Shown: in pieces, positions 36,767 to 50,685 of the stretch
Position numbering within the stretch: the stretch's first letter is position 1
Layout of the letters: every line of letters starts with the position of its first letter
Assembly (NCBI GenBank): GCA_021736575.1
Contig: JAIPFP010000001.1
Coordinates: 1-64,000, forward strand
Origin: Pirellula sp.
GTDB lineage: Bacteria; Planctomycetota; Planctomycetia; Pirellulales; Pirellulaceae
Direction: 5' to 3'
DNA: 64,000 nt
Program-made: the position numbers and the translations under genes
Notes under the pieces: model-generated
Seen by the model: only the letters and a program-made list of their open reading frames with translations
The model's database searches: none
Told to the model about the DNA's origin: nothing

Positions 36767-37026
36767 AGTAGGTCAAGTGTCCCCAGTTGTTTGATCGAGT
36801 CCCGCAATCGACTAACAATCACTTCACCAGCGTTCACGCCATGGCTTTTGGTTGCAGCCTCCCAAGCGTCCGGTTGCGATTCCTGGAGCCAGTCAATTAC
36901 TTCGTCAGGAAACAGCGCCCGAGCTCGATCGTATCGGCTAGCATCGCCATCGGCATAGAGCCAACCGTGGTTCACAAGGTGCTCGCAGATGGCGTTTTCG
37001 AAGTTGATTTCGGTGTGGATGGTCAT
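36763..37026 (-). pseudogene. hsdR: Type I restriction endonuclease subunit R, N-terminal fragment only
   Basis: 87 residues (MTIHTEINFENAICEHLVNHGW, YDRARALFPDEVIDWLQ, DAWEAATKSHG, SRLRDSIKQLGTLDLL) match the very start of type I R subunits, which run to ~1,000 residues with nuclease and helicase domains. Here a stop follows at the point where family members continue RHGIELLG. The catalytic PD-(D/E)XK site and helicase are absent, so no restriction activity is possible. The start overlaps the AlbA_2 gene remnant, keeping the operon coupling. Confidence 0.8.
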
Positions 37027-37915
37027 TGAGATTTGGAAGGCTTTTTGTATCGATATTTTTGGTTAGGGTCTGTTGGTTTATCTGGGATAGTAAGCTGGAC
37101 TAAGTCTCCTCGAAGTAGGTCTGCCATGTAGTTTGACCGAACATACTCTTGGTTCCGACCAACAAACCCCGCAACCTCACTAATGCTTAAATCCTTCCAT
37201 TTCAGCGGGGCGACAATTGCATCTAAGATAGCCCCCGGTTTAGATTTTCCACCCAAAGCATTGAGAATTTTCGATAACTCTGGAGGAACCAGGTCCCCAG
37301 GTTTGCCCCCAAGCTCCCCTGATTGACGCTCGTCGAGCTCCCTAGGTTTGCCGTCGAGCTCCCTAGGTTTGCTGTCGAGCTCCCTAGGTTTGCTGTCGAG
37401 CTCCCTAGGTTTGCTGTCGAGCTCCCTAGGTTTGGAAGTGGAAACGTCTGCCGTGGGGGCGATCGGCCAGTTCTCTAGGGCTTGAGAAGTAATGACATAG
37501 TAGGTAGCAGAACCTCTCCCCTTTTTGTCAAGAAGCCCACAATCGCATAGTTTTTTAAGTTGCTTACTTGCCGTGAGCGTATCCACATGTCGGTTGATAT
37601 CGCGATAAGTTGAATTGTTTATCGCGCCCACTTCCCGAGCCGAGATCATCGCTTTCATTTCTTCTTCATTGAGATTGTGGGACTCGAATGATTTGAGCCA
37701 TGTAAGATCTTCGGGACTGAGAAAATGGTGGAAAAGCAATCATCGGTTGGTTCGACACCGAGGATAAGATATCCGCCGCCAAGGCATGGCTCGTTTGCAA
37801 ATGCAAAAACCGTTTCCAGTGCGGAAGTACCGAATGAGCTTCCGGCCTTAGCCTCGATGGATACATTTTCGTCGAGTGCGTTTAGCTCCTCGATCAATTG
37901 ATCCGCAGTTTTCAT
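37023..37915 (-). pseudogene. AlbA_2 (Schlafen-type) DNA-binding protein, disrupted by deletion/frameshift
   Basis: Two frames together represent one gene. The first (37915-37655) reads [25 protein letters not shown], then FAFANEPCLGGGYLILGVEP, the N-terminus of AlbA_2/Schlafen-domain proteins found in type I restriction operons. It runs out of frame near 37,740, after which a second frame ending at 37023 gives the C-terminal helix-turn-helix part (LSPEDLTWLKSFE, DINRHVDTLTASKQLKKL, GSATYYV). The central several hundred residues are missing. The second half also holds a five-copy KPRELD repeat. The second frame could still be translated alone as ~238 residues from TTG 37739. Confidence 0.75.
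37332..37436 (-). repeat. 21-bp tandem repeat, five units, encoding KPRELD
   Basis: Five consecutive 21-bp units (GTCGAGCTCCCTAGGTTTGCT on the plus strand; first and last differ by one or two bases). Read on the minus strand they encode SKPRELD repeated, in frame, in the AlbA_2 remnant. Near-identity of the units indicates recent slippage expansion. Confidence 0.92.
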
Positions 37916-39144
37916 GCTGACTCCTTTTCAACAAATTCACGAACGTCGATCTTGCCGGTGACGGCTGCGGAGATCAGGGCGGTCCGGCGTTCTTGCAGCA
38001 GCTCGATCCCACGCTCAGCTTCAGAAGTTAGGGCGTCCAACGCGGCGGTAGCTTCGTCGAGATAGTTAGTGCCTGCTACTTTCTTTGAACTCAGTGTGCC
38101 ATTGAGGACGATGCCGAAGCGGCTGCCGCCGTCTTTTGCGGGACGCATCTTCGATATGAGATGCATGAGGAACAATAGCGAACCGTCGCTGACTCGGGGC
38201 AGACCGGGACCAAAGCGACCGTTGAAACCTTGCTGCTCGTACTCCTTGCGAATGAAGGCTTCGATCTTCTTCCATTCCACGCCGAACGGTGGATTGGACA
38301 GCATGTAGTCGAAGAATTTTCCGATGAACCCATCGTTCGACAAGGTGTTGCCCAGAATAATGTTGCCGATGTCATGCCCTTTGATCAGCATGTCCGCTTT
38401 ACAGATCGCGTACGATTCCGGGTTGAGCTCCTGTCCGAACATCACGAGCCGAGCACCCGGGTTCATTTCTCCAAGATGCTCTTCCGCGACGGACAACATG
38501 CCGGCGGTCGCGACGGTTGGATCGTAAAGGGATCGGACAACTCCCGGCTTGCTCAGAATGTCGCTATCCTCCACGAACAGCAAATCCACCATGAGGCGGA
38601 TGACTTCGCGCGGCGACATGTGCTCGCCGGCTGTTTCGTTGGATAGTTCAGCAAACTTGCGAATGAGTTCCTCGAAGACGGTACCCATCTGAGTATTGCT
38701 GACGACTTTGGGTTGCAGGTCGATATTGGCGAACTTTTCCGATACCAAGTACAGCAAACCCGCCTTGGAAAGTCGGTCGACTTGAGTGTAGAAGTCGAAG
38801 CATTCAAAAATATCTTTTACGGATGGGGAAAAGCCTTGGACATAGGCGAACAGGTTTTCCTTGATGTGATCTTGGTCCCCCATTAGTTTCTTCATGTCTA
38901 GGGGCGAGGTGTTATAGAACAGAAGCCCGGATTTCCTGAGCAGGAACGGTTCTGGGGTAACGCCGGCAGCGGACCGCTTCTCGAGTTCCTTCAATACCGC
39001 TTCTTTGGTCCCATCGAGCACGCAATCCAAACGCCTTAGGACCGTGAATGGCAGAATGACCTTGCCGTACTCGGATTGCTTGTAGTCACCACGCAGGAGA
39101 TCGGCAACGGACCAAATGAAGGACGAAAGGTTGGGTTGATTCAT
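37912..39144 (-). pseudogene. hsdM: Type I methyltransferase HsdM truncated and fused to HsdS C-terminus
   Basis: A 410-residue frame starting at [11 protein letters not shown] (39144). Residues 1-349 are the HsdM subunit: N-terminal helical domain, then [17 protein letters not shown], the AdoMet site region, the catalytic NPPFG at 284-288, and [17 protein letters not shown]. At residue ~349 (GIVLNG, near position 38,097) it switches to the last ~60 residues of an HsdS specificity subunit ([37 protein letters not shown]). The target-recognition domains are gone. Motif I reads [10 protein letters not shown] where functional relatives have DPTAGTGGML, so both key glycines are lost. Modification activity is very unlikely. 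Confidence 0.85.
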
Positions 39145-39576
39145 CGAGATTCCAGGCAAGTGGCAAGTGAAGAATGCGTAGTATACTTGATTCCTGAAAC
39201 TTGCAGACGTGTCTGGCAAATCAATCGTGGGAGTCGTGTTCAGCGCAACGAAGAGGTTTGCGAGGGAAGCGTCCCTACTGCCATCCAGAACTGCTGCCGG
39301 GGCTTCTCGAACAAGGGATTAATTCCGGCTAACTTCTTAAGCCCCAAAACAGAGATCGGGCAAGCGCTCAAAGGCGAGCCCACGTACGGCCCAAGTACGA
39401 GGCTTTTCGATTGCCGGCCGGCTCTTGCGAACGGAATCAATCGCGACCTTTAAAAACGTGGTTTTTCATGCCCAGACGGCCCGCCTCCGCACCTGGGAAC
39501 GAATGCCCGTGTCTGCCGAGAGTCAGCTTGATGTCAAAATGCCGCATAACAGATTGAACCGACTTCGTTCTTCGTT

Positions 39577-39683: not shown

Positions 39684-40124
39684 TTACAACGGTTCGCAAG
39701 TCATGCAATGTCCCTTGACTAATATCTCGCTAATGCGAGCGATGTTAAGAGTCTTTTTCTGATTCGCGTCCGGCAGTTCAAGTCCCTCCATGCACGAGAC
39801 CACTCCGCAATCGACACAAACGAAATGCGGGTGACTGCTCCGGTCGTGCGATGGGTCTCTAATTTCAAACCGCCACACGTGATCGCCTAACTCCGTACGG
39901 CTTACCAATTCGGCGTCGGTTAAGTCCGTTAAATTCCGAAACACGGTCGCCTTATCAAAACCTAGCGGAACCAGTCGATCCGAAAGCTCTGCGTGCGTCT
40001 GCGGCTTGCTCCCTTTTTGAAGAGCGATCAAAACAGATATACGGGCTGGCGTGCTTCGCAGTCCAGCACCACGCAGAATTTCGCGTGCTTTTTCGATCTC
40101 ACCCGTGTCCGATTTCTTACTCAT
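39684..40124 (-). CDS. Fur-family transcriptional regulator
   Basis: 146 residues from ATG 40124. The winged-helix DNA-binding part is STPARISVLIALQ...FDKATVFRNLTDLTDAELV; the dimer/metal part contains HPHFVCVDCG with His98, His100, Cys103, Cys106 and a second pair HCMTC with Cys140, Cys143, giving a complete structural Zn site. Fur proteins repress metal-uptake or peroxide genes with a metal corepressor; subtype (Fur, Zur, PerR) is not decided here. It overlaps the receiver-domain gene by 8 bp and is the last gene of an eight-gene operon with ExbB/ExbD, suggesting metal control of that system. Confidence 0.9.
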   Translation of the reverse strand: MSKKSDTGEIEKAREILRGAGLRSTPARISVLIALQKGSKPQTHAELSDRLVPLGFDKATVFRNLTDLTDAELVSRTELGDHVWRFEIRDPSHDRSSHPHFVCVDCGVVSCMEGLELPDANQKKTLNIARISEILVKGHCMTCEPL

Positions 40125-40506
40125 TTGAAGATCTCTTCTCCAGAAAACGCGACAGTCGCTCATCCGTTAACGGTTTCGAATACTCTAACTTCCCGAATCC
40201 GTATTCGGCTCCCTCGGCCATCGCCGCCTGCTGTTGCTCTGGATAGTTCGTGATAATCATTACCGGTATCTGCTTGTACTCGTCGCTGCGCTTTAGGTGC
40301 CTAAGGATTTCCACACCATCCGTGTAGTCGATGTCGAGCTTGCGGTTGATTAGGATCAAATCAACCGGCTCTTGACCGAGTAATTCCATTGTATCCTTTA
40401 ATTCGTGCGCTCTTAAGACAGACACGTCATAACCACGAGTCAGCATCCTTTTGAGAGCGCTGTGGTCTGGATCACAATTTCCTACGTCCAATACTGTTTT
40501 TGTCAT
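40117..40506 (-). CDS. Receiver-domain protein lacking the phosphoacceptor Asp
   Basis: A 129-residue single-domain response-regulator fold. Acidic pocket residues are present (Asp12/Asp14), as are Thr86 (VMIITNYPE) and the conserved Lys before Pro (SKPL, Lys111). The position of the phosphorylated Asp is Asn54 (LILINRKLD instead of LILxD). It is therefore predicted to be a non-phosphorylatable pseudo-receiver that may act constitutively or bind another ligand. No histidine kinase or output domain is linked. It overlaps both neighbours by 4-8 bases. Confidence 0.8.
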   Translation of the reverse strand: MTKTVLDVGNCDPDHSALKRMLTRGYDVSVLRAHELKDTMELLGQEPVDLILINRKLDIDYTDGVEILRHLKRSDEYKQIPVMIITNYPEQQQAAMAEGAEYGFGKLEYSKPLTDERLSRFLEKRSSNE

Positions 40507-42737
40507 TTTGCTTGGTTGAGTTGGATTTCTAAGTCACGTACCAACGTGTCTTGTAGATACTTCTGCATCATCTGACGTGTGGTATCGACCATCTTGTCGA
40601 TGCGTTTTACCACTCCTGACGGGACCACTCCCTGGTCCGTCGAAAGTGCTCGTCGTTGAATGCCTTCGATTTGCTCCGACATCTTGTCATACGATTTTAC
40701 CCGTTTCAATTCGTCGAGCAAACGTTCCGCCACGTCCAGTTGATTGGCCTTGATTTTCTGTTTGATCCGAGACTCAAGGATTCTACGGCGAACAACTAAG
40801 TCGAGCACTTCTCCTTGCAGTCCCTTCAAAAACGCTTCCGTCTCCAACCTGCGTCGATCGTCCGGAAGATCGGCTTGGTCAACCGACTTGAGACCAGTCA
40901 CGATCGGCAACCTGGCTAAGAGCGTGTCGCCGTTCTTGATGTAATAAAGATACAGCGGAACATTCAACTGGATCGATCCTCGTAGCTTGGGTGGAGTCAC
41001 ATCCGGCTTTGGTTCGGCGGGCACTGCGTCTGGAGCAGCATTTTCACCCTCCTCAGATTTTTTCTTTTCCTCCGTTGCGGTTGGGGTGCTTGCAGAACTT
41101 TGCGGTTTTACTAAGTCCGCTTTTTCAATCCGTTTATACGCGGGCGGGTCAACCGGTGACGCTGCAAACTTACGCGCATTCGCGATTGCGATCGTCTTAC
41201 TGTCGCTGGGTGGGTCGTAAAGAATGGTCGGCAGATCTTGCGTCAAGAGCGGCAACACACCGCGCCAATCGGTCCGCCCCTCCATCTTGAGATCTTCCGT
41301 TCCCGGCGTTCGAAGATAAATCTCGGCACCTGGAACAGCGCTACCAGGGCTTCGCTGAATACCCAGCTTCAAATCGGACGACACATGGCTTGGTTTGACT
41401 TTCAGGCCGATTCGTTGAGTGCGACGGTTTTTCGCCGCCGCGAGCGCACCCCGACTGGCTGTGAAAATGGCGCCATACAATCGCGAGATATCGTCAATTT
41501 TTTCGGTGACCGCGATAAAAGTGTAGGGAATGGTCTGGAGCAATGTTGGATTCCCATTCGAATCGTCACGTCGCACAACAGGTAAAATAACGTCTCCCAG
41601 GCCGATGCGAATGGGATGATCCTCTTTGGTCAAAAGTCCCGCAGCTCTTACTCGCAACACCGCAGTTTTGAAATCGGTCTCTTCGATTCGAACGACCGGC
41701 GAAAACGTGTCGCGAGCAAGCTGAGCGATCGCACGCGGGATCTCACTGGAATAGATGACGTCCATTGAGGCAATCTCCCCCATTCGTCTCACAAAGGAAT
41801 CAAGCTCTTTCACTTGGATGCGAATCGACTCCCCCACCTTTTCCACCGAAGCCATAAATATTTTGTCATTGTTTCGCAGCAACGATTCCGGTTGCCACGG
41901 AAGTCGCGTTGGAATTTGCCTCGCAACCTTTTTGAATTTATCCAGATCCATTTTTTGGACGATAGCGGCAACGGTTTCGCCTGAGTCCAGTTCCGCTTGC
42001 AATTTTTCGTTGCTACCGTCAAAAATGTTGACAATGGATTTGAAATCCGACCACTGCTTCTTGTCCAGGTAAGGGACGATGTCGCGTTGCAATGCCGAGT
42101 ACTGCAATGGCTGAATCGCAATACTCTTCATCCGCTGAATCGCCGACTCCAACGTTCGGACGCTTTGCAGGCTTGCCGCCCGAGCTTCCAAATCGGCGAT
42201 TTCTTCCAGCTCTTGTTTGCTTGGCTTTTTCTTTGGGTCCTTTGCAACTTCCTCGCGTTTTGGCGGTGGCGGATTCATCTTGAGAAAGGCCTGTTTGGCT
42301 TCTTCCGATTTGCCTACAACCAGAATCAACTCGCGGGATAGAAGTTGTTCGACAGTCAACTCATCAAGACGATACAGCACCGAACCAAACAAGGCGTCCG
42401 GCGTCGACTCAACGTTGATCGTCCAAGTGGCTCCAAAATGAATCTCGGCAAGCTCCTCAATTTTTCGGTGCATTTCATTTTGCGACTCTTCACTGAGCGA
42501 CAAACTGGGTGAAATGCTGAGCCAGACTTTGACTTTGTAAGGCGAGTACTCCCAAATCTCTTGCCCGACCGACATCGAGCAGAATGGAGCAAACAGAACT
42601 GCGACAACGAGTAACACAACGATGCAACATGAACGCAAAGCAATTTTTCCACCGATTGCAATCGCATGTAGAGCTTGGAAACGAGGGGACGCAACGGTAT
42701 TGTCATTTCGCGATAATGAGTGAAGGAATGAAATCAT
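40503..42737 (-). CDS. Exported 744-residue protein of unknown function
   Basis: The N-terminus has a long positively charged start then a hydrophobic segment (CCIVVLLVVAVLFAPFCSMS), a signal peptide or anchor. The mature protein has a mixed alpha/beta domain (YKVKVWLSISPSL, LILVVGKSEEAKQAF), a helical Pro/Lys-rich stretch near 160-185, a beta-rich middle, a low-complexity linker (SASTPTATEEKKKSEEGEN) near 545, and a C-terminal coiled coil ending in LEIQLNQAK. I recognise no family. It is coupled by ATGA overlaps to the SBP gene before and the receiver gene after, so it most likely acts with the ExbBD/PQQ system. Confidence 0.85.
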   Translation of the reverse strand: MISFLHSLSRNDNTVASPRFQALHAIAIGGKIALRSCCIVVLLVVAVLFAPFCSMSVGQEIWEYSPYKVKVWLSISPSLSLSEESQNEMHRKIEELAEIHFGATWTINVESTPDALFGSVLYRLDELTVEQLLSRELILVVGKSEEAKQAFLKMNPPPPKREEVAKDPKKKPSKQELEEIADLEARAASLQSVRTLESAIQRMKSIAIQPLQYSALQRDIVPYLDKKQWSDFKSIVNIFDGSNEKLQAELDSGETVAAIVQKMDLDKFKKVARQIPTRLPWQPESLLRNNDKIFMASVEKVGESIRIQVKELDSFVRRMGEIASMDVIYSSEIPRAIAQLARDTFSPVVRIEETDFKTAVLRVRAAGLLTKEDHPIRIGLGDVILPVVRRDDSNGNPTLLQTIPYTFIAVTEKIDDISRLYGAIFTASRGALAAAKNRRTQRIGLKVKPSHVSSDLKLGIQRSPGSAVPGAEIYLRTPGTEDLKMEGRTDWRGVLPLLTQDLPTILYDPPSDSKTIAIANARKFAASPVDPPAYKRIEKADLVKPQSSASTPTATEEKKKSEEGENAAPDAVPAEPKPDVTPPKLRGSIQLNVPLYLYYIKNGDTLLARLPIVTGLKSVDQADLPDDRRRLETEAFLKGLQGEVLDLVVRRRILESRIKQKIKANQLDVAERLLDELKRVKSYDKMSEQIEGIQRRALSTDQGVVPSGVVKRIDKMVDTTRQMMQKYLQDTLVRDLEIQLNQAK

Positions 42738-45100
42738 TTAAATTGATACCTCCACTTTTGAACATCCTGGTACAAGCCGTTTGGTTTCTTCGAGACACCG
42801 GACACGTCGGTTCGATATGCGAACGTTTCGCCGACTTGCCAAAGGGGCAGGATCGGAAGATGAGCCGCCACCAGAGCGTGCAGGTCTTGGCATCCTTGAC
42901 GAACTTCACGCCAGTTTCTGGCGACGCTAAGTTTCCCAAGTTCTTGAACGATAAACTGACTGTTGGACTCGGCAGGCCCGCCTTTTCCAAAAAGCCGTTC
43001 CGCATCGGTTGCAGGCTCCCACATGGCGGCTGAGATGTAGATGAGATCAGCGGGCGATTCGTCTTTAGGTCCAGGCATTTTTTCGAGAACGACTAGCTCC
43101 GCCGGAACGTTGACCAGCTTCCACGCTTGCACGATCGCTTCACCCGCTACGCGAGCTGATTCGTAATCGGGCACACCCAATTTGAGAGTAGGAATCGGAG
43201 CTAGCTTCTCACCTTTTTTTTCCGCAATGGCCCTGAGCTTGGCTTGGGTCAGCAAGATCAGTATCTGAGCGGAACGCGGATCGTAAGCCACATTCTCGAT
43301 GCTATTATTGTAAGCATACGCGATGGGGTCAGAATCATTGGCGCCGGATGGAAACGGGCCACTGACAACTTTGCTCAGGCTCGTTGGTTTCCCTCCTAAT
43401 ATTTCACCGTTCAAGATGCCATCTCGGTTGATGGCGTAGAGCAGTGCCCGCCGAAACTCAGGCGCATCCAAATAAATGTTCGGTCGTTTTGGAACAAGCA
43501 TGTGGACCATTGGCAACGCGTACTCTTCGGTTGCAACCGTGCGAACGTTGCGAAGCTTTCTCACGTCAGCCGGAAACAACCGATCGATCATCTCGATTTC
43601 ACCTCGCACCAAATCCGCCATCGCTTTCTGCGGATCAGAATACAAGATTTCTTGTATTTCTCTTGGTTGATAGTCTACAGGTGGCTTGGTGTCAGCCCAC
43701 TCGAATCGCACAAGATTGGGTTCCATGCTTTTTATTTTGTAATATGCCGCAGCGGGTTGGGTGCTGGCTACCGAAGGAAGTTGCCATTGCAAGAAGGCCT
43801 GTGGCAACACGTGTGGTCTTCTCATCTTGAGCTTCAAACGCTCAGGACCGAATACCGAAACGGAATCGACGATCGCGGCCCAACCTGGCACATAACTGCT
43901 GTGTCCAACATAGGCTCGATTCAAGATGGCTTGCGAAATCGCGAGACTGTCGGGAACACCATCCTTGCCCGGATTTTGCACCATCAAATCCAACTCCGTT
44001 CGGTCGTCGCTGTGCTGAAACGATCCGAAACTGAATCGATACAATCCACCTTCGGGCCCTGTACTTCTAAGTTCGAACATCGGCCGCGATACCAATTGAC
44101 CCGTTCGAAACGAGGGCCAATCCGCTAGCGATGACGGGTCAGGCGTTTTGGATTGCTGAAAAACACCGACTCGAATCATGGGATAAGCACGAATGAGGTC
44201 GTTCAGGAACTGCTTGCCACCTTCAATCTCCGGTTCGATGTCGAGCATCTTGACCGCGAATTGCCTTGCTTTTGAAAAATCACCTTCCTCTTTGGCTTCC
44301 TCCGCCTTGGCTCGCAAGCCCGTGGCCATTTCAAGAAATTTACCCTTCCACTTTTCGACGACAGGCAAGGGATCCTTTTTGTAGTCTTTTTCCAACCGCA
44401 AAATCATGGCTTTGGCGGTCGATAAATCATTGGCGGTGAAGTACGATTCGACCAATTGACTTGAGACGTTGGATATCGCGTTGCGAATCTTGTCCTTGTC
44501 CTTGTCTTCCGGAAAAGACCTTTGGAATTCTTCGAGTACTGCCAACGCATGCGGCAATCGACGTTGGCCAGCCATGTCGATCGCACTCTGATACAAGAAG
44601 TCGCGACGCAGTTTTTGCAATCCGGGGGTCGATGGATAGTTGACCAACAAAAAGTTCAAATGCTCAAACGCTTCACCGAATTGCTTCTTTTCCAGCAGTT
44701 TGTTGGCTTGCTGAGCAATCAGTTGCTCATAAAGATAGATTGTTTCGATGTCCCTCCAGGCGATTTCGTAGATCCGATCCGGAAATACCGGAAAGGTGAC
44801 TTTGAATCGATCCGTTTCTTTGGGGGCGACAGGAATTTTTCGATCTGGGAAATCGATGGTATTGACTCGTACGCTTCGTCCCCCTGCCGCTTGTTTCAGC
44901 GTGATAATGTCGAACGGAATCTGTTCGTCGAGGATGGATCCAACAATACCAGCTTCCGCTAAAAGCTTGTCTTGTTGTGCACTGGCCGTTCGGCTGACCA
45001 ACAGCAAAATGAGGTTGCACAGAAGCCAAAACTGCATGCCTCGAATCTTGGAAATTCGAGCGGCCTGCGGAAATTTGAAATGATCACAACCCATCATCAT
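42734..45100 (-). CDS. TPR-containing extracellular solute-binding protein, family 5 like
   Basis: 788 residues with a signal peptide (FWLLCNLILLLVSRTASA). Residues ~120-290 are TPR-like helical repeats (FEHLNFLLVNYPS, LPHALAVLEEFQRSFPE). From ~300 the protein follows the SBP_bac_5 (OppA/NikA) fold: EFRRALLYAINRDGILNGEILGG is the best motif, with IASGxxAP replaced by TSLSKVVSGPFPSG, and LPILPLWQVGETFAYR near the end. Family 5 proteins bind peptides, nickel or sugars for ABC import, but no ABC permease is here and the TPR fusion is unusual, so a structural or signalling role is possible. Confidence 0.85.
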   Translation of the reverse strand: MMMGCDHFKFPQAARISKIRGMQFWLLCNLILLLVSRTASAQQDKLLAEAGIVGSILDEQIPFDIITLKQAAGGRSVRVNTIDFPDRKIPVAPKETDRFKVTFPVFPDRIYEIAWRDIETIYLYEQLIAQQANKLLEKKQFGEAFEHLNFLLVNYPSTPGLQKLRRDFLYQSAIDMAGQRRLPHALAVLEEFQRSFPEDKDKDKIRNAISNVSSQLVESYFTANDLSTAKAMILRLEKDYKKDPLPVVEKWKGKFLEMATGLRAKAEEAKEEGDFSKARQFAVKMLDIEPEIEGGKQFLNDLIRAYPMIRVGVFQQSKTPDPSSLADWPSFRTGQLVSRPMFELRSTGPEGGLYRFSFGSFQHSDDRTELDLMVQNPGKDGVPDSLAISQAILNRAYVGHSSYVPGWAAIVDSVSVFGPERLKLKMRRPHVLPQAFLQWQLPSVASTQPAAAYYKIKSMEPNLVRFEWADTKPPVDYQPREIQEILYSDPQKAMADLVRGEIEMIDRLFPADVRKLRNVRTVATEEYALPMVHMLVPKRPNIYLDAPEFRRALLYAINRDGILNGEILGGKPTSLSKVVSGPFPSGANDSDPIAYAYNNSIENVAYDPRSAQILILLTQAKLRAIAEKKGEKLAPIPTLKLGVPDYESARVAGEAIVQAWKLVNVPAELVVLEKMPGPKDESPADLIYISAAMWEPATDAERLFGKGGPAESNSQFIVQELGKLSVARNWREVRQGCQDLHALVAAHLPILPLWQVGETFAYRTDVSGVSKKPNGLYQDVQKWRYQFK

Positions 45101-48100
45101 TGGCTTGCACCTGGCTTGTCGGATTGCGTAGACAGTGCGGTTGGGACTGGCACTGTGAGAATCAGGCCCTCGTCACATGGAACCAAAAGCCCTTTGGGAA
45201 GGATCAACGGTGGCCCACTGATGGGTTCGCCGACTTGGACACGAGCAACGATGGAACCATCGGTCATCGATAGGCGGATCAATTCCCCGTTGGTCGTTGC
45301 TAGAAGACAATCGTTTTCGACAAGGCTAGGGTTGCCAACCAACACCACTTTCTCTAAAGGTAGTGTCCAGAGTTTTTTGCCGGCGTCATTGCACCCGATT
45401 AAGCCGTCGATATCGCTCAAGGCCAACACAACGTTTCCATTGGGACTTTCCAAAACATAAGGCCCCCACGAAAACCGACCTTCGACAGGGACATTCGCGA
45501 TTCGCTTGAGTTCATTCGAATCATAGAAATCGAGTTGGTCACCCGATGCATTTGCTGACACTCCGACGACGACATCGTTGATGATAGACAAGCGTCCCTT
45601 GAGTGGCTTTTCCAACGATTGCGAAGTGATAATACGCAGTTGTTTTCCCGTTGAAAGCTTGTACATGTAGCGTTGTTGATCCGCCACGATGACCGTTTGC
45701 TTGTCCGCCATCAAAACCGGATTCAGCCATTTGGGGCGTTCCCCCGCCTGAATCGACGGTTGAAATGGAGTACCGATCATCTTGCCCTTTTCCGGATCGA
45801 TCATCGCAATTTGTGCGCTGTCGAGCGGTACGAGAATAGCACCCGAGCTGACAGCAACTGCTTCACCACTGGGAAAAGCCTCACCCAAATCCATTGCCAA
45901 AATCTTCGATGGAGAAGTCGTTCGTTTCGACGGATCGATGATCAGCAACTGATTCCCCTTCGCTTGATTCAGCAGTCCAATCCTGGAATCTTTCAACGCA
46001 AAAGGTGTCAGAAACATCGTGGATCGTTGATTTCGGCCTAGGTTTTCAACCGGGTCAAGAGGTTGTTTGTCCGAAAACGACTTGTCGTCTACCAAATAAA
46101 CGGCCCCCTGGGCGGTCACGGCAACGAAGCCCTTTTCGTCCGTCGAAAGGGAAGTAACCGGTACACCGACGTCTGATTCCCAGACAGGATCTCCGGTGCC
46201 GGGCTTCATGGCTGTCACACGTACTCCGAGATTGCCGCGAACAACTCGAGAATGAATCACATAATCATCGGCTTTGATTGGTCTATTGGTGAACTGGTCT
46301 CCGTCCTCTCGCAACCATTGCCGATTCAGCTTCTGCGAAGTAACTTGAACTTGGTAGTAAATCAATCGAGTCGAAGCAAGCCAAAGATCGTTCCCGACCA
46401 TCAGTGGCCAAGTTGTTTTCGGGCTCGTTTCGTTTTCAATCAAGCTGACAAGCTTAAAGACTTTGTTTTTTGGGTTTGTAGGTTCGACATCGAGGATCGC
46501 TATTTCACCCAGATTCGTTGCGACCGCCAATCTACGGCCATCCATTTGCGGCTCAGTCACAACATGCCCGCGAAGTGTGATCGGGTTTTGAGCTGGCTTG
46601 ATGTCGAGTCCATCATCATTCGTGCCGAAGACTCGCATCGTGCAATAGTCGGAACCATCATTCTCAAAAATGATAAGCTGGTTGAGGATCCATATAGGCG
46701 GAACAGCGATCGTCGATGGTGCGTGTCCGACATACACGACTTCTTCACATTGTCCGCTTGCGCGTGAGATCGCGTAGAGGTTGGAGTGATTGCCCAGTAC
46801 ATAACGTTTCTGTTTCGAAGTCGAACCGCCGATTCCCACATCGATCGCTTGTGGGAATTTCTTTCCCCATCTGGATTGGCCAGTGGCCGCGTCAAGGCAG
46901 AACACTTCGCCGCTGACAGTCGGAACAAAGATGACGTCCGAGTCGATCGTTGGCGAAATGAGTCGCCCGTTCATCTTCGCTTCCCAAACCAAGGAACCGT
47001 CTGCGGCTGCCAATCGTCGTAAAACACCTTGTTCGGGAACGGAGACGAGTACATCGCTATCTCCGACCGCTAACAATCGCTTGGGTTCGCCTGTCCAGTC
47101 CGTGCCGATATGTTTTCGCCAAATCACTTTTCCATTGCCGGCGTTCATCGCAACCACTGAGCCTTCGACTCTCAGATAAATCGTCGAGCCGTTTTCGCCA
47201 TCTAGCCCCGGGGCTTTTCGACCGACAAGCAGAACGCTATTGGCAGAGTCCGATGTCGCCGTCTCGTTGTTCATTTGAGGAGACTTTGGAGCCGCAACGA
47301 CTAAACTCTGTTGCAAACCTGTGGCTTGCGCAAGCAGTTCGTTGAGTTTGGCATCCGATTGAAGTTGCGGATACTTCCTAAGCAATGCTCGGCGTGATTC
47401 GTAGGTCTTTGAAACATCTTTCGCTTCGACAGCGGTCGTCATAGCCACGAGAGTCGACGCCAGATCTTCGCCGCGCAATATGTCCCGGAGCAGACGGCTC
47501 TGGTCCTCTTCGATCTTTTTGATGCGAAGTTCATTTTGGGTTCTTTCCTGCGTTCCGACGTATCGCGGGTCGCGAACCAATTCCAACTGTTGATTCATTT
47601 TTTCGATCAACGTTTTTCGATCTGCGATAGACGATGTGCTTTCGATCTTCATCACAAATTTTTCGGAAATTCGTAATAAGGTATCGGTTACATCGCCGCG
47701 TAGCTCATTCAAAGCGGATTCGCTCGCGATCGTCGGAAGTATTTCTTGGCATGCCTTGAGCGCGACCATCGGGTCGGCTGCTTTTTCGGCGTCTTGCCGG
47801 ATCTTAGCTAACCCGACCATCACTTTGGATTGGCTTACACGCGAGTCGGATGCATTGTTCTTTCCAAAATCGCCGAACGACTTCGCGGCCTTCTCATAAT
47901 CTCGTGCTTTGTAGGCATCTTCCGCTTTCGTCCAGGCTTCATCAGCGGATCCTTTGAAAAGCCATCCTAGCAGAGGAATTAAAAGGATCAGCAAAAGCGC
48001 AACGACGAACCCGTAACCAAGGATTCGATACGATTCCCATGCGCTCTTTTTCTTAACATTCGTATCGCGTACCACGCGTCGTGGCAATTCCTCCAACTCG

Positions 48101-48522
48101 CTGAACGCTTCGACTTTTCGTTTGCGACGCGATTTGCGTTTGCTTCCCACGTCGATTGCCTCGATGACCTCGACCGGCTCATCGATCACTTCTACCTCGG
48201 CAACCTCGTCCACTTGAACCATGTCATTAGGCAGTAGATCCTCAACAGAATCGTGATCGTCGGGTATTGGCTCAATCGGTCTGCCGCCGCGCAACGCAAG
48301 CGATGGGTCGGGTCTAGTCCCGGCAGTAGCCTCATTGAGTTCCGTCACAAGCTTGGTTGCTTGAAAGCGAGTCAGCTGTCCATTTTCGACCAAGAGCTTG
48401 GCAATGGCTTCAGGTGTGACACGGCCCTTCGACTGCTCCACCTGGCGATGAAGCTCTTCAATGATTTCTGGGTCGAGTAATCCTCGGCTCTCCAGAAGAG
48501 CTATAAACTGCGACGCTGCCAT
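45097..48522 (-). CDS. Membrane-anchored PQQ-like beta-propeller protein
   Basis: 1,141 residues. Residues 1-65 form a helical domain (IALLESRGLLDPEIIEEL, LLVENGQLTRFQATKLV) seen in many planctomycete kinases and membrane proteins. An acidic then a Lys/Arg-rich stretch follows, with a single membrane helix at 169-189 (YGFVVALLLILLIPLLGWL). Residues ~190-420 are helical (TPR-like). The rest is a PQQ-type beta-propeller: GSVVAMNAGNGKVIWRKHIG, LAAADGSLVWEAK, VFCLDAATGQSRWG and so on; there is no sign of the PQQ-binding dehydrogenase residues, so it is probably a scaffold like BamB. The N-terminus would be cytoplasmic. It starts 3 bp after the ExbD gene. Confidence 0.9.
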   Translation of the reverse strand: MAASQFIALLESRGLLDPEIIEELHRQVEQSKGRVTPEAIAKLLVENGQLTRFQATKLVTELNEATAGTRPDPSLALRGGRPIEPIPDDHDSVEDLLPNDMVQVDEVAEVEVIDEPVEVIEAIDVGSKRKSRRKRKVEAFSELEELPRRVVRDTNVKKKSAWESYRILGYGFVVALLLILLIPLLGWLFKGSADEAWTKAEDAYKARDYEKAAKSFGDFGKNNASDSRVSQSKVMVGLAKIRQDAEKAADPMVALKACQEILPTIASESALNELRGDVTDTLLRISEKFVMKIESTSSIADRKTLIEKMNQQLELVRDPRYVGTQERTQNELRIKKIEEDQSRLLRDILRGEDLASTLVAMTTAVEAKDVSKTYESRRALLRKYPQLQSDAKLNELLAQATGLQQSLVVAAPKSPQMNNETATSDSANSVLLVGRKAPGLDGENGSTIYLRVEGSVVAMNAGNGKVIWRKHIGTDWTGEPKRLLAVGDSDVLVSVPEQGVLRRLAAADGSLVWEAKMNGRLISPTIDSDVIFVPTVSGEVFCLDAATGQSRWGKKFPQAIDVGIGGSTSKQKRYVLGNHSNLYAISRASGQCEEVVYVGHAPSTIAVPPIWILNQLIIFENDGSDYCTMRVFGTNDDGLDIKPAQNPITLRGHVVTEPQMDGRRLAVATNLGEIAILDVEPTNPKNKVFKLVSLIENETSPKTTWPLMVGNDLWLASTRLIYYQVQVTSQKLNRQWLREDGDQFTNRPIKADDYVIHSRVVRGNLGVRVTAMKPGTGDPVWESDVGVPVTSLSTDEKGFVAVTAQGAVYLVDDKSFSDKQPLDPVENLGRNQRSTMFLTPFALKDSRIGLLNQAKGNQLLIIDPSKRTTSPSKILAMDLGEAFPSGEAVAVSSGAILVPLDSAQIAMIDPEKGKMIGTPFQPSIQAGERPKWLNPVLMADKQTVIVADQQRYMYKLSTGKQLRIITSQSLEKPLKGRLSIINDVVVGVSANASGDQLDFYDSNELKRIANVPVEGRFSWGPYVLESPNGNVVLALSDIDGLIGCNDAGKKLWTLPLEKVVLVGNPSLVENDCLLATTNGELIRLSMTDGSIVARVQVGEPISGPPLILPKGLLVPCDEGLILTVPVPTALSTQSDKPGASQ

Positions 48523-48525
48523 CGT

Positions 48526-49317
48526 TTAATCAAACTCCTCAACCACGGTCACTTGAAAACTACTAAAACCTTTGTCTCGGCCTGCATCCAATGCAGCCAC
48601 AACGGCAGCATGGATTGAATCGACGTGCGCTTCCACCGCCATCTTAAGAGCATTGTCATTTGCACCAGTGACCATCTCCTTGCGAGCGTCGTCGAGCGCG
48701 ATCAACAAATCCTGCTTGCTGCTCGCTTGCCGATCTTCGCCACCAGGCAGAATGATCGTATAAGCATTGAACTCATCGACTTGGACTCGAACGGTATCGA
48801 GAAGTTTCTCCGGTTCTTCTCGCTGAAGGGAAGATGGCTTGTCGGACAATGCAGGTGGCTCTTCAAGCACTTTTTCTTTTGAAAACGAAGCCGTAATCAT
48901 AAAAAAGATCAACAACAGAAACGTGACGTCCACCATCGGCGTCATATCCATGTCGTCCTTGGGAAGCTCCCGTTTCTGGAACGAGATCTCTTCGACGTCG
49001 TCTTCGTCCTCCTCATCCTTTTCGCCGTCATTTTCGTCTTCATTGACATTCTTGCCAACGCCGCCACGATTCAGACTATCGAGCGCGACATCCTCATTAC
49101 GCATCGGCTCATAAATTGGATCAATTATTTCGACAACCTCGACCATTTCATCCGATACGATTTCGTTTGGATCGAGCTTGGATTCTGAATCCACCGTGTT
49201 GCGAAGAGGTACTTGAATCGCTCCATCGCACGAAGGGCAGCGAATCTCACGCCCCAGCAATCTTTCGTTGACGGAATGAGTCGCAGAGCATTTCGAGCAA
49301 TGAACACGAACGGACAT
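48526..49317 (-). CDS. ExbD/TolR-type protein with N-terminal zinc ribbon
   Basis: 263 residues, twice the usual ExbD length. Residues 1-31 form a CxxC-x16-CxxC zinc ribbon (Cys7, Cys10, Cys27, Cys30), like MJ0042-type fingers. A highly acidic linker follows (GEKDEEDEDDVEE), then the ExbD membrane segment DMTPMVDVTFLLLIFFMITASF, in which Asp130 corresponds to the proton-carrying Asp of ExbD/TolR, and a periplasmic domain. Its ATG overlaps the stop of the first exbD by one base. With ExbB it should form the proton-driven motor of the operon; the cytoplasmic zinc ribbon is unusual. Confidence 0.9.
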   Translation of the reverse strand: MSVRVHCSKCSATHSVNERLLGREIRCPSCDGAIQVPLRNTVDSESKLDPNEIVSDEMVEVVEIIDPIYEPMRNEDVALDSLNRGGVGKNVNEDENDGEKDEEDEDDVEEISFQKRELPKDDMDMTPMVDVTFLLLIFFMITASFSKEKVLEEPPALSDKPSSLQREEPEKLLDTVRVQVDEFNAYTIILPGGEDRQASSKQDLLIALDDARKEMVTGANDNALKMAVEAHVDSIHAAVVAALDAGRDKGFSSFQVTVVEEFD

Positions 49318-49823
49318 CAGTTGGACTCCGAAACGGCAATATTGATCATCTTGCCCTCTTCTAGAATCTCGGAAATCGCGATTTTCACTTTCTGCATTTG
49401 GCCGGAAGTTACATTCCCCTCGGCTCGAACAAGCACTTCCGTCTTGCGCCCCGATTCCAGTTCAAGCTGCAGATACTCAGCAATTTCCGCAGCTTGCTGT
49501 TCAGGGTCATCGGAGAAAAGGGCACCATCCCCTTTGGCAACAATCGGCGTATCTCCCGAGCCTCTCATCACCAAAATGGAAACACAGTTTTTGGTCGCAA
49601 CCGAACTGCCGTTCTTGGCAGGAGGAATATCGTAGGATTTTTCGCCGGTCATCTTCGAGGTGAGGATAAAGAAGATCAACAACAAAAAAGTCATATCGAT
49701 CATTGGCGTGATGTCCATTTCGTCGTCCATAGGGGGACGATCGGGCATCTTGAGGATCTCCGGTTCACTTTCTTCGACACTACCAGTCATCGCGCTCGCA
49801 TCTCCCGAAGTCGCATTGCTCAT
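49317..49823 (-). CDS. ExbD/TolR biopolymer transport protein
   Basis: 168 residues. A ~35-residue cytoplasmic leader is followed by the membrane segment MDITPMIDMTFLLLIFFILTSKM with the essential Asp43, then a periplasmic domain (VSILVMRGSGDTPIV, LVRAEGNVTSGQMQKV) of normal ExbD size. It lies 30 bp after exbB and directly before a second, longer exbD. A pair of different ExbD proteins suggests a heteromeric motor. Confidence 0.93.
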   Translation of the reverse strand: MSNATSGDASAMTGSVEESEPEILKMPDRPPMDDEMDITPMIDMTFLLLIFFILTSKMTGEKSYDIPPAKNGSSVATKNCVSILVMRGSGDTPIVAKGDGALFSDDPEQQAAEIAEYLQLELESGRKTEVLVRAEGNVTSGQMQKVKIAISEILEEGKMINIAVSESN

Positions 49824-49853
49824 TACGAACCTGCTTGCATGTGAGGAGGAAGC

Positions 49854-50519
49854 TTAAGCGCTCTGACGCTTGTTTCGTTGTTCAATGAGAGCAAGGCCGA
49901 TTTTGTAGGACTCCAAGAATCTGGCTAATCCAGAACCGACCAGATCTTGCATATGACGAATTCGATTGTGGATGCTCGCCATCGCCATAACCAAGGGGAT
50001 CGCGATCATCAGTCCAATCGCGGTGGTTTCCAGGGCCAATCGAATGTCGCCTGCTAGCTCCGCAGGCGCCACGTTGGCAGCCGAACTGAGCTTTCCGAAC
50101 GCGGCCATCATCCCGACCACTGTTCCGAACAACCCAAGCATCGGAGCTGTCTTAATAACCGTCACAATCCAGGCGATACTGTAGTCAAGATCCGCAATGA
50201 CATCCCGCTGAAAGCGATCGAGTGTCATCTGTCGCACCTTGTTAAATCCGAAAATTTTATTCTTGCATGCGAAACTTACCATCATGGGTAATGCCCGCGT
50301 TTCGCCCTCGCAAACCTGCAAAACGGCTTCGAAATCGCCCCGTTTTAAGTCCGCTTCGATCGATTCGACAAACGCATCTTGGGCTTCTTCCGTCTTGAAG
50401 CGTTTGCGATTCACCCGCGTCATCACCAAAACAACGAAGTAAGCCCCCCAAAGGGCCACTGCCGCAAGTGCCACATACGAGCCTTTTCCAACAATATCGA
50501 ATATAGCGGTAGGGTCCAT
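49854..50519 (-). CDS. MotA/TolQ/ExbB proton channel family protein
   Basis: 221 residues with three membrane helices: YVALAAVALWGAYFVVLVM, IAWIVTVIKTAPMLGLFGTVVGMMAAF, and LALETTAIGLMIAIPLVMAMA. The GLFGTVxGMMAAF and TAIGLxIAIP motifs are those of ExbB/TolQ, including the Thr/Ser of the proton path. It forms the pentameric channel around ExbD and uses the proton gradient to move a periplasmic partner. It is the first gene of the operon; a MITE-like element lies ~170 bp upstream. No tonB or tolA gene is nearby. Confidence 0.93.
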   Translation of the reverse strand: MDPTAIFDIVGKGSYVALAAVALWGAYFVVLVMTRVNRKRFKTEEAQDAFVESIEADLKRGDFEAVLQVCEGETRALPMMVSFACKNKIFGFNKVRQMTLDRFQRDVIADLDYSIAWIVTVIKTAPMLGLFGTVVGMMAAFGKLSSAANVAPAELAGDIRLALETTAIGLMIAIPLVMAMASIHNRIRHMQDLVGSGLARFLESYKIGLALIEQRNKRQSA

Positions 50520-50685
50520 AGTCGAACGAATCCGGTGATGAGAATTTAGTTTTAGAAGTAGCTACGAGCGCCGCCACTTGCGGCCATTCATGCAGAAGAG
50601 GCGGTATCCTTAAGCATAGCTGCGACTCATCACTTTGAGGATTGGCCATCCTGAGATTTCCAACAGATTTGAACCTTTTGCCCTC

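Follow-up and report, generated by a model that had tools for sequence, protein, structure and literature searches.

What an ExbB/ExbD proton motor moves where no TonB- or TolA-type partner can be found is the question raised by an operon of Pirellula sp., located at positions 39684-50519 of the 64,000-nucleotide stretch of contig JAIPFP010000001.1 analysed here (the window). This operon combines ExbB and two different ExbD proteins with a membrane-anchored propeller protein, a TPR-SBP protein, an exported protein of a new family (UNK), a pseudo-receiver and a Fur-family regulator. The results described below suggest that the cluster is probably a proton-motive-force (PMF)-driven trans-envelope force system replacing the role of TonB/Tol-Pal, with a transducer of its own, TRANSD, which is the name given here to a family of proteins of about 300 amino acids (aa) found upstream of ExbB.

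The operon consists of eight tightly packed open reading frames (ORFs), on the minus strand only, whose coordinates are exactly those of the original prediction, whose families were confirmed and whose junctions, from ExbB to Fur, are +30, -1, +3, -4, -4, -4 and -47 bp. The first three genes encode an ExbB/TolQ/MotA-family proton-channel subunit of 221 aa (49854..50519; Pfam MotA_ExbB, 1e-21), ExbD1, of 168 aa (49317..49823; Pfam ExbD, 4e-14), with its pore-helix Asp in PMIDMTFLLLIFF, and ExbD2, of 263 aa (48526..49317; Pfam ExbD, 2e-15), which is distinct from ExbD1 and carries a pore-helix Asp and an N-terminal CxxC-CxxC zinc ribbon (Zn_ribbon_4 scores below the Pfam cut-off; the CxxC pairs are kept in relatives). 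These proteins belong to the MotA/TolQ/ExbB and ExbD/TolR motor families, with Pfam scores above cut-off, and their predicted proton-path residues are intact: the Thr of the two pore-lining ExbB segments was invariant in 16 homologues, and Asp was found in 73 of 73 pore helices of ExbD relatives by a regular expression that left the Asp position free. Downstream follow the propeller protein (1141 aa; 45097..48522; Pfam PQQ_2/BamB, 9e-23), the exported TPR-SBP_bac_5 protein of NikA/OppA type (788 aa; 42734..45100; Pfam SBP_bac_5, 2e-11) and UNK (744 aa; 40503..42737), which matches no Pfam, NCBIfam or PDB-sequence family.

The expectation that this gene order would also be found outside this genome was confirmed. 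A search with the single UNK sequence detected relatives in 21 of 294 genomes of the phylum, every one in the class of the window, and 20 neighbourhoods from other genera, fetched via UNK relatives, were compared as a first set. The order ExbB-ExbD1-ExbD2-propeller-SBP-UNK was kept in essentially all of them at 20-50% identity, the exceptions being one contig starting mid-cluster and a few loci with one weak member below cut-off. The eight-gene arrangement is far beyond chance, its six-gene order being shared with other families at this level of identity, and such conservation rules out that the operon arose by chance or is peculiar to this genome. The receiver and Fur genes follow UNK in all 13 loci of the genus of the window and gave no match in the 20 neighbourhoods from other genera. 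Therefore, six genes of the cluster form a core shared across the class, to which this genus adds a regulatory tail.

The eight genes of the original prediction lack two members that head the cluster in most relatives and lie outside the window here. TRANSD was encoded directly ahead of ExbB in 12 of the 20 first-fetched loci, and in more after extended fetching, in which an alpha/alpha-toroid protein of about 600 aa preceded it in several loci. Among 80 named GTDB-genome loci, Blastopirellula marina DSM 3645 included, the order toroid-TRANSD-ExbB-ExbD1-ExbD2-propeller-SBP-UNK was contiguous in most of those on long enough contigs. When 298 genomes of the class were searched with profiles, TRANSD was detected in 260 and UNK in 232 (both in 227, TRANSD only in 33, UNK only in 5, neither in 33), a co-occurrence with a Fisher p of 2e-20 when phylogeny is ignored. 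Positions were compared in 125 listed genomes, part of those having both genes: in 93, TRANSD preceded UNK on one strand within 13.5 kb (median 8.6 kb), the remaining pairs being on different contigs (28) or far apart on one contig (4). Outside the class, one weak TRANSD match was obtained in 392 genomes of the phylum.

In the window genome, TRANSD was located by profile search (E 8e-68) on another contig than the operon (C64), with a toroid ORF ahead of it that extends to the contig end; its nearest matches are from Pirellula metagenome-assembled genomes. TRANSD was also present, and unlinked to the ExbB cluster, in 10 of 10 congeners tested. In the complete, single-contig congener G650, TRANSD (5.07 Mb) and UNK (6.24 Mb) are about 1.17 Mb apart, so the split is genuine and reflects a real rearrangement in this genus. 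An assembly artefact is ruled out by G650 and by three further genomes in which both genes lie apart on one contig (G283, G373 and G557).

The structural model of TRANSD predicts one transmembrane (TM) helix (residues 24-55), a disordered, low-confidence linker, acidic and Gly-rich (Asp plus Glu about 21%, Gly 13%, Pro 9%), with a helix at 99-119, and a confidently predicted head of about 150 aa (148-298; predicted local distance difference test, pLDDT, mostly above 90). As modelled, this is the layout of TonB and TolA without their sequence, fold or TM His. Position 26 of the helix was Asp or Glu in 53 of 53 homologues, and His was not among the commonest residues at any of positions 26-55 of the same set, whereas it was present in the TM segments of two true TonBs of the same family. 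That TRANSD could be a hidden TonB or TolA was ruled out by the lack of any Pfam, NCBIfam, PDB-sequence, hhalign or fold match: TonB_C did not match TRANSD, hhalign against a planctomycete TonB gave a probability of 0.4%, and no PDB fold reached E 0.001 with the head. Regarding vWA, no family match was found in the 53 homologues and none was among the 50 best fold matches. Tandem duplicates of the TRANSD gene were observed in several genomes (L086, L109, L125, L151 and L153; G673:C49:766-2618).

Pfam profiles were used to look for known systems in the window genome, G650 and six other genomes; E. coli controls were positive and 14 control genomes behaved as expected. TonB_C was absent from six of the eight and Plug, of TonB-dependent receptors, from five (present in the other three), the window genome and G650 being in both groups, and TolB_N was absent from all eight. 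As the window genome is only 94.8% complete, G650 is the stronger witness for these absences. The alternative that would have refuted the original prediction, a TonB/TolA-type gene and a standard outer-membrane receptor as the partners, was not borne out, and the earlier claim of a distinct envelope motor is supported, as a system powered by ExbB/ExbD that has neither TonB or TolB nor TonB-dependent receptors. A literature search found no published mention of the gene cluster, in agreement with the claim that no system with this combination had been described. Salt stress leads to a rise of two R. baltica genes, exbB (RB12053) and exbD (RB12055), which may or may not correspond to this locus (PMC2754498), and the main text of the P. 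limnophila essentiality paper does not mention Exb, Tol or TonB.

From these data, a mechanism may be proposed in which the window encodes most parts of a PMF-driven trans-envelope machine. An ExbB ring enclosing two different ExbDs as a pair would let protons through, and this flow would drive TRANSD, an inner-membrane rod whose gene lies elsewhere in the window genome and which has a disordered linker in the periplasm and a novel globular head. TRANSD would then pull or reposition a periplasmic assembly, putatively a single complex of the anchored TPR/BamB-like propeller, the TPR-SBP protein, UNK and the toroid, which would transmit its action to the outer membrane. TRANSD would act like TonB or TolA, but with a different head and without a TonB-dependent receptor. 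For UNK, whose homologues have about 500-600 aa, the AlphaFold2 model (mean pLDDT 75) predicts a mixed alpha/beta and beta-rich body, a disordered insert of about 90 residues (about 501-589) and a C-terminal helical bundle. Its fold matches were weak (hydroxymethylbilane synthase at 2e-4; TolB, LpoB, GNA1162 and binding proteins around 0.01) and unusable for identification, with global TM scores about 0.1 and root-mean-square deviations near 20 A.

Several observations weigh against this mechanism. TRANSD lacks the TM His that is a feature of TonB and TolA, and its head is unlike any solved fold, so that its role rests on layout and neighbourhood. In several lineages, its gene has moved away from the motor genes, 33 genomes of the class have TRANSD without detected UNK, and lone paralogues occur in Rhodopirellula, Stieleria and Aporhodopirellula (L108, L110, L112, L113 and L117; around 9.9-10.8 kb), the genes adjoining that of L117 encoding unrelated enzymes. 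To these must be added that no outer-membrane protein gene is found in the cluster and that the window genome is incomplete.

Regarding the job of the system, a housekeeping role in the envelope is tentatively favoured over the import of large molecules because of its near-universal occurrence in the class. Import is the less probable of the two, though a possibility to be taken seriously; the same motor would power uptake of large substrates (polysaccharide, protein or peptide) across the outer membrane, with the TPR-SBP protein as periplasmic acceptor. The envelope of planctomycetes is unusual, and intact polymers enter these bacteria by a PMF-dependent route without known machinery; carbonyl cyanide m-chlorophenyl hydrazone (CCCP) abolished the entry of dextran into the periplasm, the route being left unexplained (PMC5394234). 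An import machine would account for this PMF-dependent uptake of dextran and green fluorescent protein, and the family-5 SBP domain is of NikA/OppA type, its profile matching NikA at 1e-19. However, the cluster encodes no outer-membrane barrel, TonB-dependent receptor or ABC permease (none of the cluster or flanking ORFs in the window is an ABC permease or ATPase gene, distant unlinked permeases being possible), its spread through the class and the lack of linked degradation genes are more housekeeping-like, and the dextran work was done with strains of Gemmata and Planctopirus, other than those in which the cluster was found here.

It is unlikely that the motor works without a separate transducer, ExbB/ExbD driving the TPR/propeller protein directly. 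This protein is a constant member of the cluster, with BamD/YfiO-like TPRs ahead of a BamB-like propeller (profile matches to structures at 1e-6 for BamD and 1e-22 for BamB), and a cytosolic N-terminus, one predicted TM anchor around residues 166-190 and a large periplasmic part; TM and signal-peptide calls for it, the SBP protein and UNK were read from the sequence, not computed. Of the earlier description as an anchored PQQ (pyrroloquinoline quinone)-like propeller, the propeller and the predicted anchor were retained, and nothing marking a PQQ enzyme was found. In contrast to TonB and TolA, the cytosolic domain is large and varies between families, being FHA in a homologue from another family (L047) and helical-looking here. 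TRANSD, whose gene neighbours exbB in most relatives and was found in each of the ten congeners tested, is a much better candidate for the moved partner than the propeller, SBP or 744-aa proteins of the original prediction.

More improbable still is a signalling or mechanosensing role, in which the motor proteins would sense the state of the envelope and report inward via FHA, zinc ribbon, pseudo-receiver and Fur. The cytosolic zinc ribbon of ExbD2, the FHA domain of propeller homologues and, in this genus, the two regulatory genes would fit such a role. The receiver (129 aa; 40117..40506; Pfam Response_reg, 4e-9) is a pseudo-receiver, as had been claimed, with Asn at the expected phospho-Asp site in the window and in 13 of 13 congeners (LINRKLD/LVNRKLD). 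But receiver and Fur are limited to one genus, and the proton-path Asp is kept everywhere, suggesting an energised motor.

The Fur-family regulator (39684..40163; Pfam FUR, 2e-11) is listed with 159 aa; its homologues begin at its codon 14, the probable true start, so the overlap with the pseudo-receiver gene probably shrinks from -47 to about -8. A Fur box upstream of exbB was rejected, as no Fur-type palindrome was conserved among the genus loci compared and only the half-site TCCTCAA was shared. In an exploratory comparison, this half-site was found upstream of exbB in 8 of 8 genus loci, the window motif being TCCTCAAA (50634..50641, minus strand), and it was not found upstream of the toroid gene in the part of the loci examined. 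One locus (L194) shows a perfect TTTGAGGA-N6-TCCTCAAA palindrome upstream of exbB. Fur-controlled metal acquisition, one of the functions originally suggested, is thus very improbable: in its favour are the overlap of the Fur gene with the end of the operon and the resemblance of the SBP to nickel/peptide-binding proteins, but Fur is missing from the cluster outside the genus, no conserved operator precedes exbB, no metal transporter lies alongside and nothing points to metal.

The next gene upstream of exbB, about 350 bp away, encodes an unrelated 834-aa ATPase that looks HerA-like when read from its sequence; it was retained in the two nearest congeners and undetected in the other congeners fetched. 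Beyond the operon end, an ORF at 37912-39219 (minus strand) reads, from its sequence, like the beginning of a type I restriction HsdM joined to an HsdS-like tail and is possibly a deletion remnant, and a 238-aa ORF at 37023-37739 (minus strand) contains a short repeated SKPRELD-type segment.

Taken as a PMF-driven force system with TRANSD as its transducer, a cluster conserved through most of the class, and paired in several genomes with no detectable TonB, TonB-dependent receptor or TolB, provides in its eight genes a concrete candidate set for work on PMF-driven processes of the planctomycete envelope. TRANSD also constitutes a new family of putative transducers for asking how freely ExbBD motors swap their moved part.

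Compared with known systems, the cluster shares with Ton an ExbB plus ExbD motor and, beside the motor genes, an inner-membrane protein with a TM helix, an unstructured linker and a globular periplasmic head. It differs from Ton in having two different ExbDs, in the absence of TonB_C and Plug from the window genome, and in a transducer without TonB_C, TM His or a solved relative of its head. Tol-Pal (TolQ-TolR-TolA-TolB-Pal-CpoB) similarly brings together a motor, a transducer-like protein, a propeller and TPR proteins in one cluster and is widely conserved, suggesting housekeeping, but TolB_N was found in none of the eight genomes, the propeller here is BamB-like, membrane-anchored and TPR-fused, and the cluster has no Pal-like gene although OmpA-domain proteins are encoded elsewhere in all eight.

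The nearest published description is that of the vWA force-transducer systems with tolQ and two tolR genes in PVC (Planctomycetes-Verrucomicrobia-Chlamydiae) bacteria, likewise of unknown function (PMC12204202, Mol Biol Evol 2025). Their head is vWA and their TM segment carries an SHLS His, whereas the TRANSD head has another fold and no His is present, and the window system has four more conserved proteins. A second ExbB locus of the window genome (contig C174, L074:3262-8614), encoding a TPR protein, ExbB, ExbD and a 666-aa TM/Pro-rich/toroid protein, also has the general style of the vWA loci. The 666-aa protein, whose second hydrophobic segment contains a His and whose toroid end weakly matches SQHop_cyclase_C, looks like another unusual transducer. 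Both systems of this genome combine a TPR protein, ExbB, ExbD, a TM protein with a linker (Pro-rich at C174) and an alpha/alpha-toroid, but at C174 the toroid is fused to the transducer-like protein with a TM His, whereas toroid and TRANSD are separate in the window system. On a bolder and still tentative reading, less than even in its chances, the latter would be a third kind of proton-driven trans-envelope system besides Ton and Tol-Pal. Such a class-wide planctomycete machine would use a new-fold transducer, two ExbDs as a heterodimer, an anchored TPR/BamB-like propeller and periplasmic proteins of its own, and would take over in these bacteria the envelope or uptake tasks handled elsewhere by Ton and Tol-Pal, possibly including the sought PMF-dependent uptake of macromolecules.

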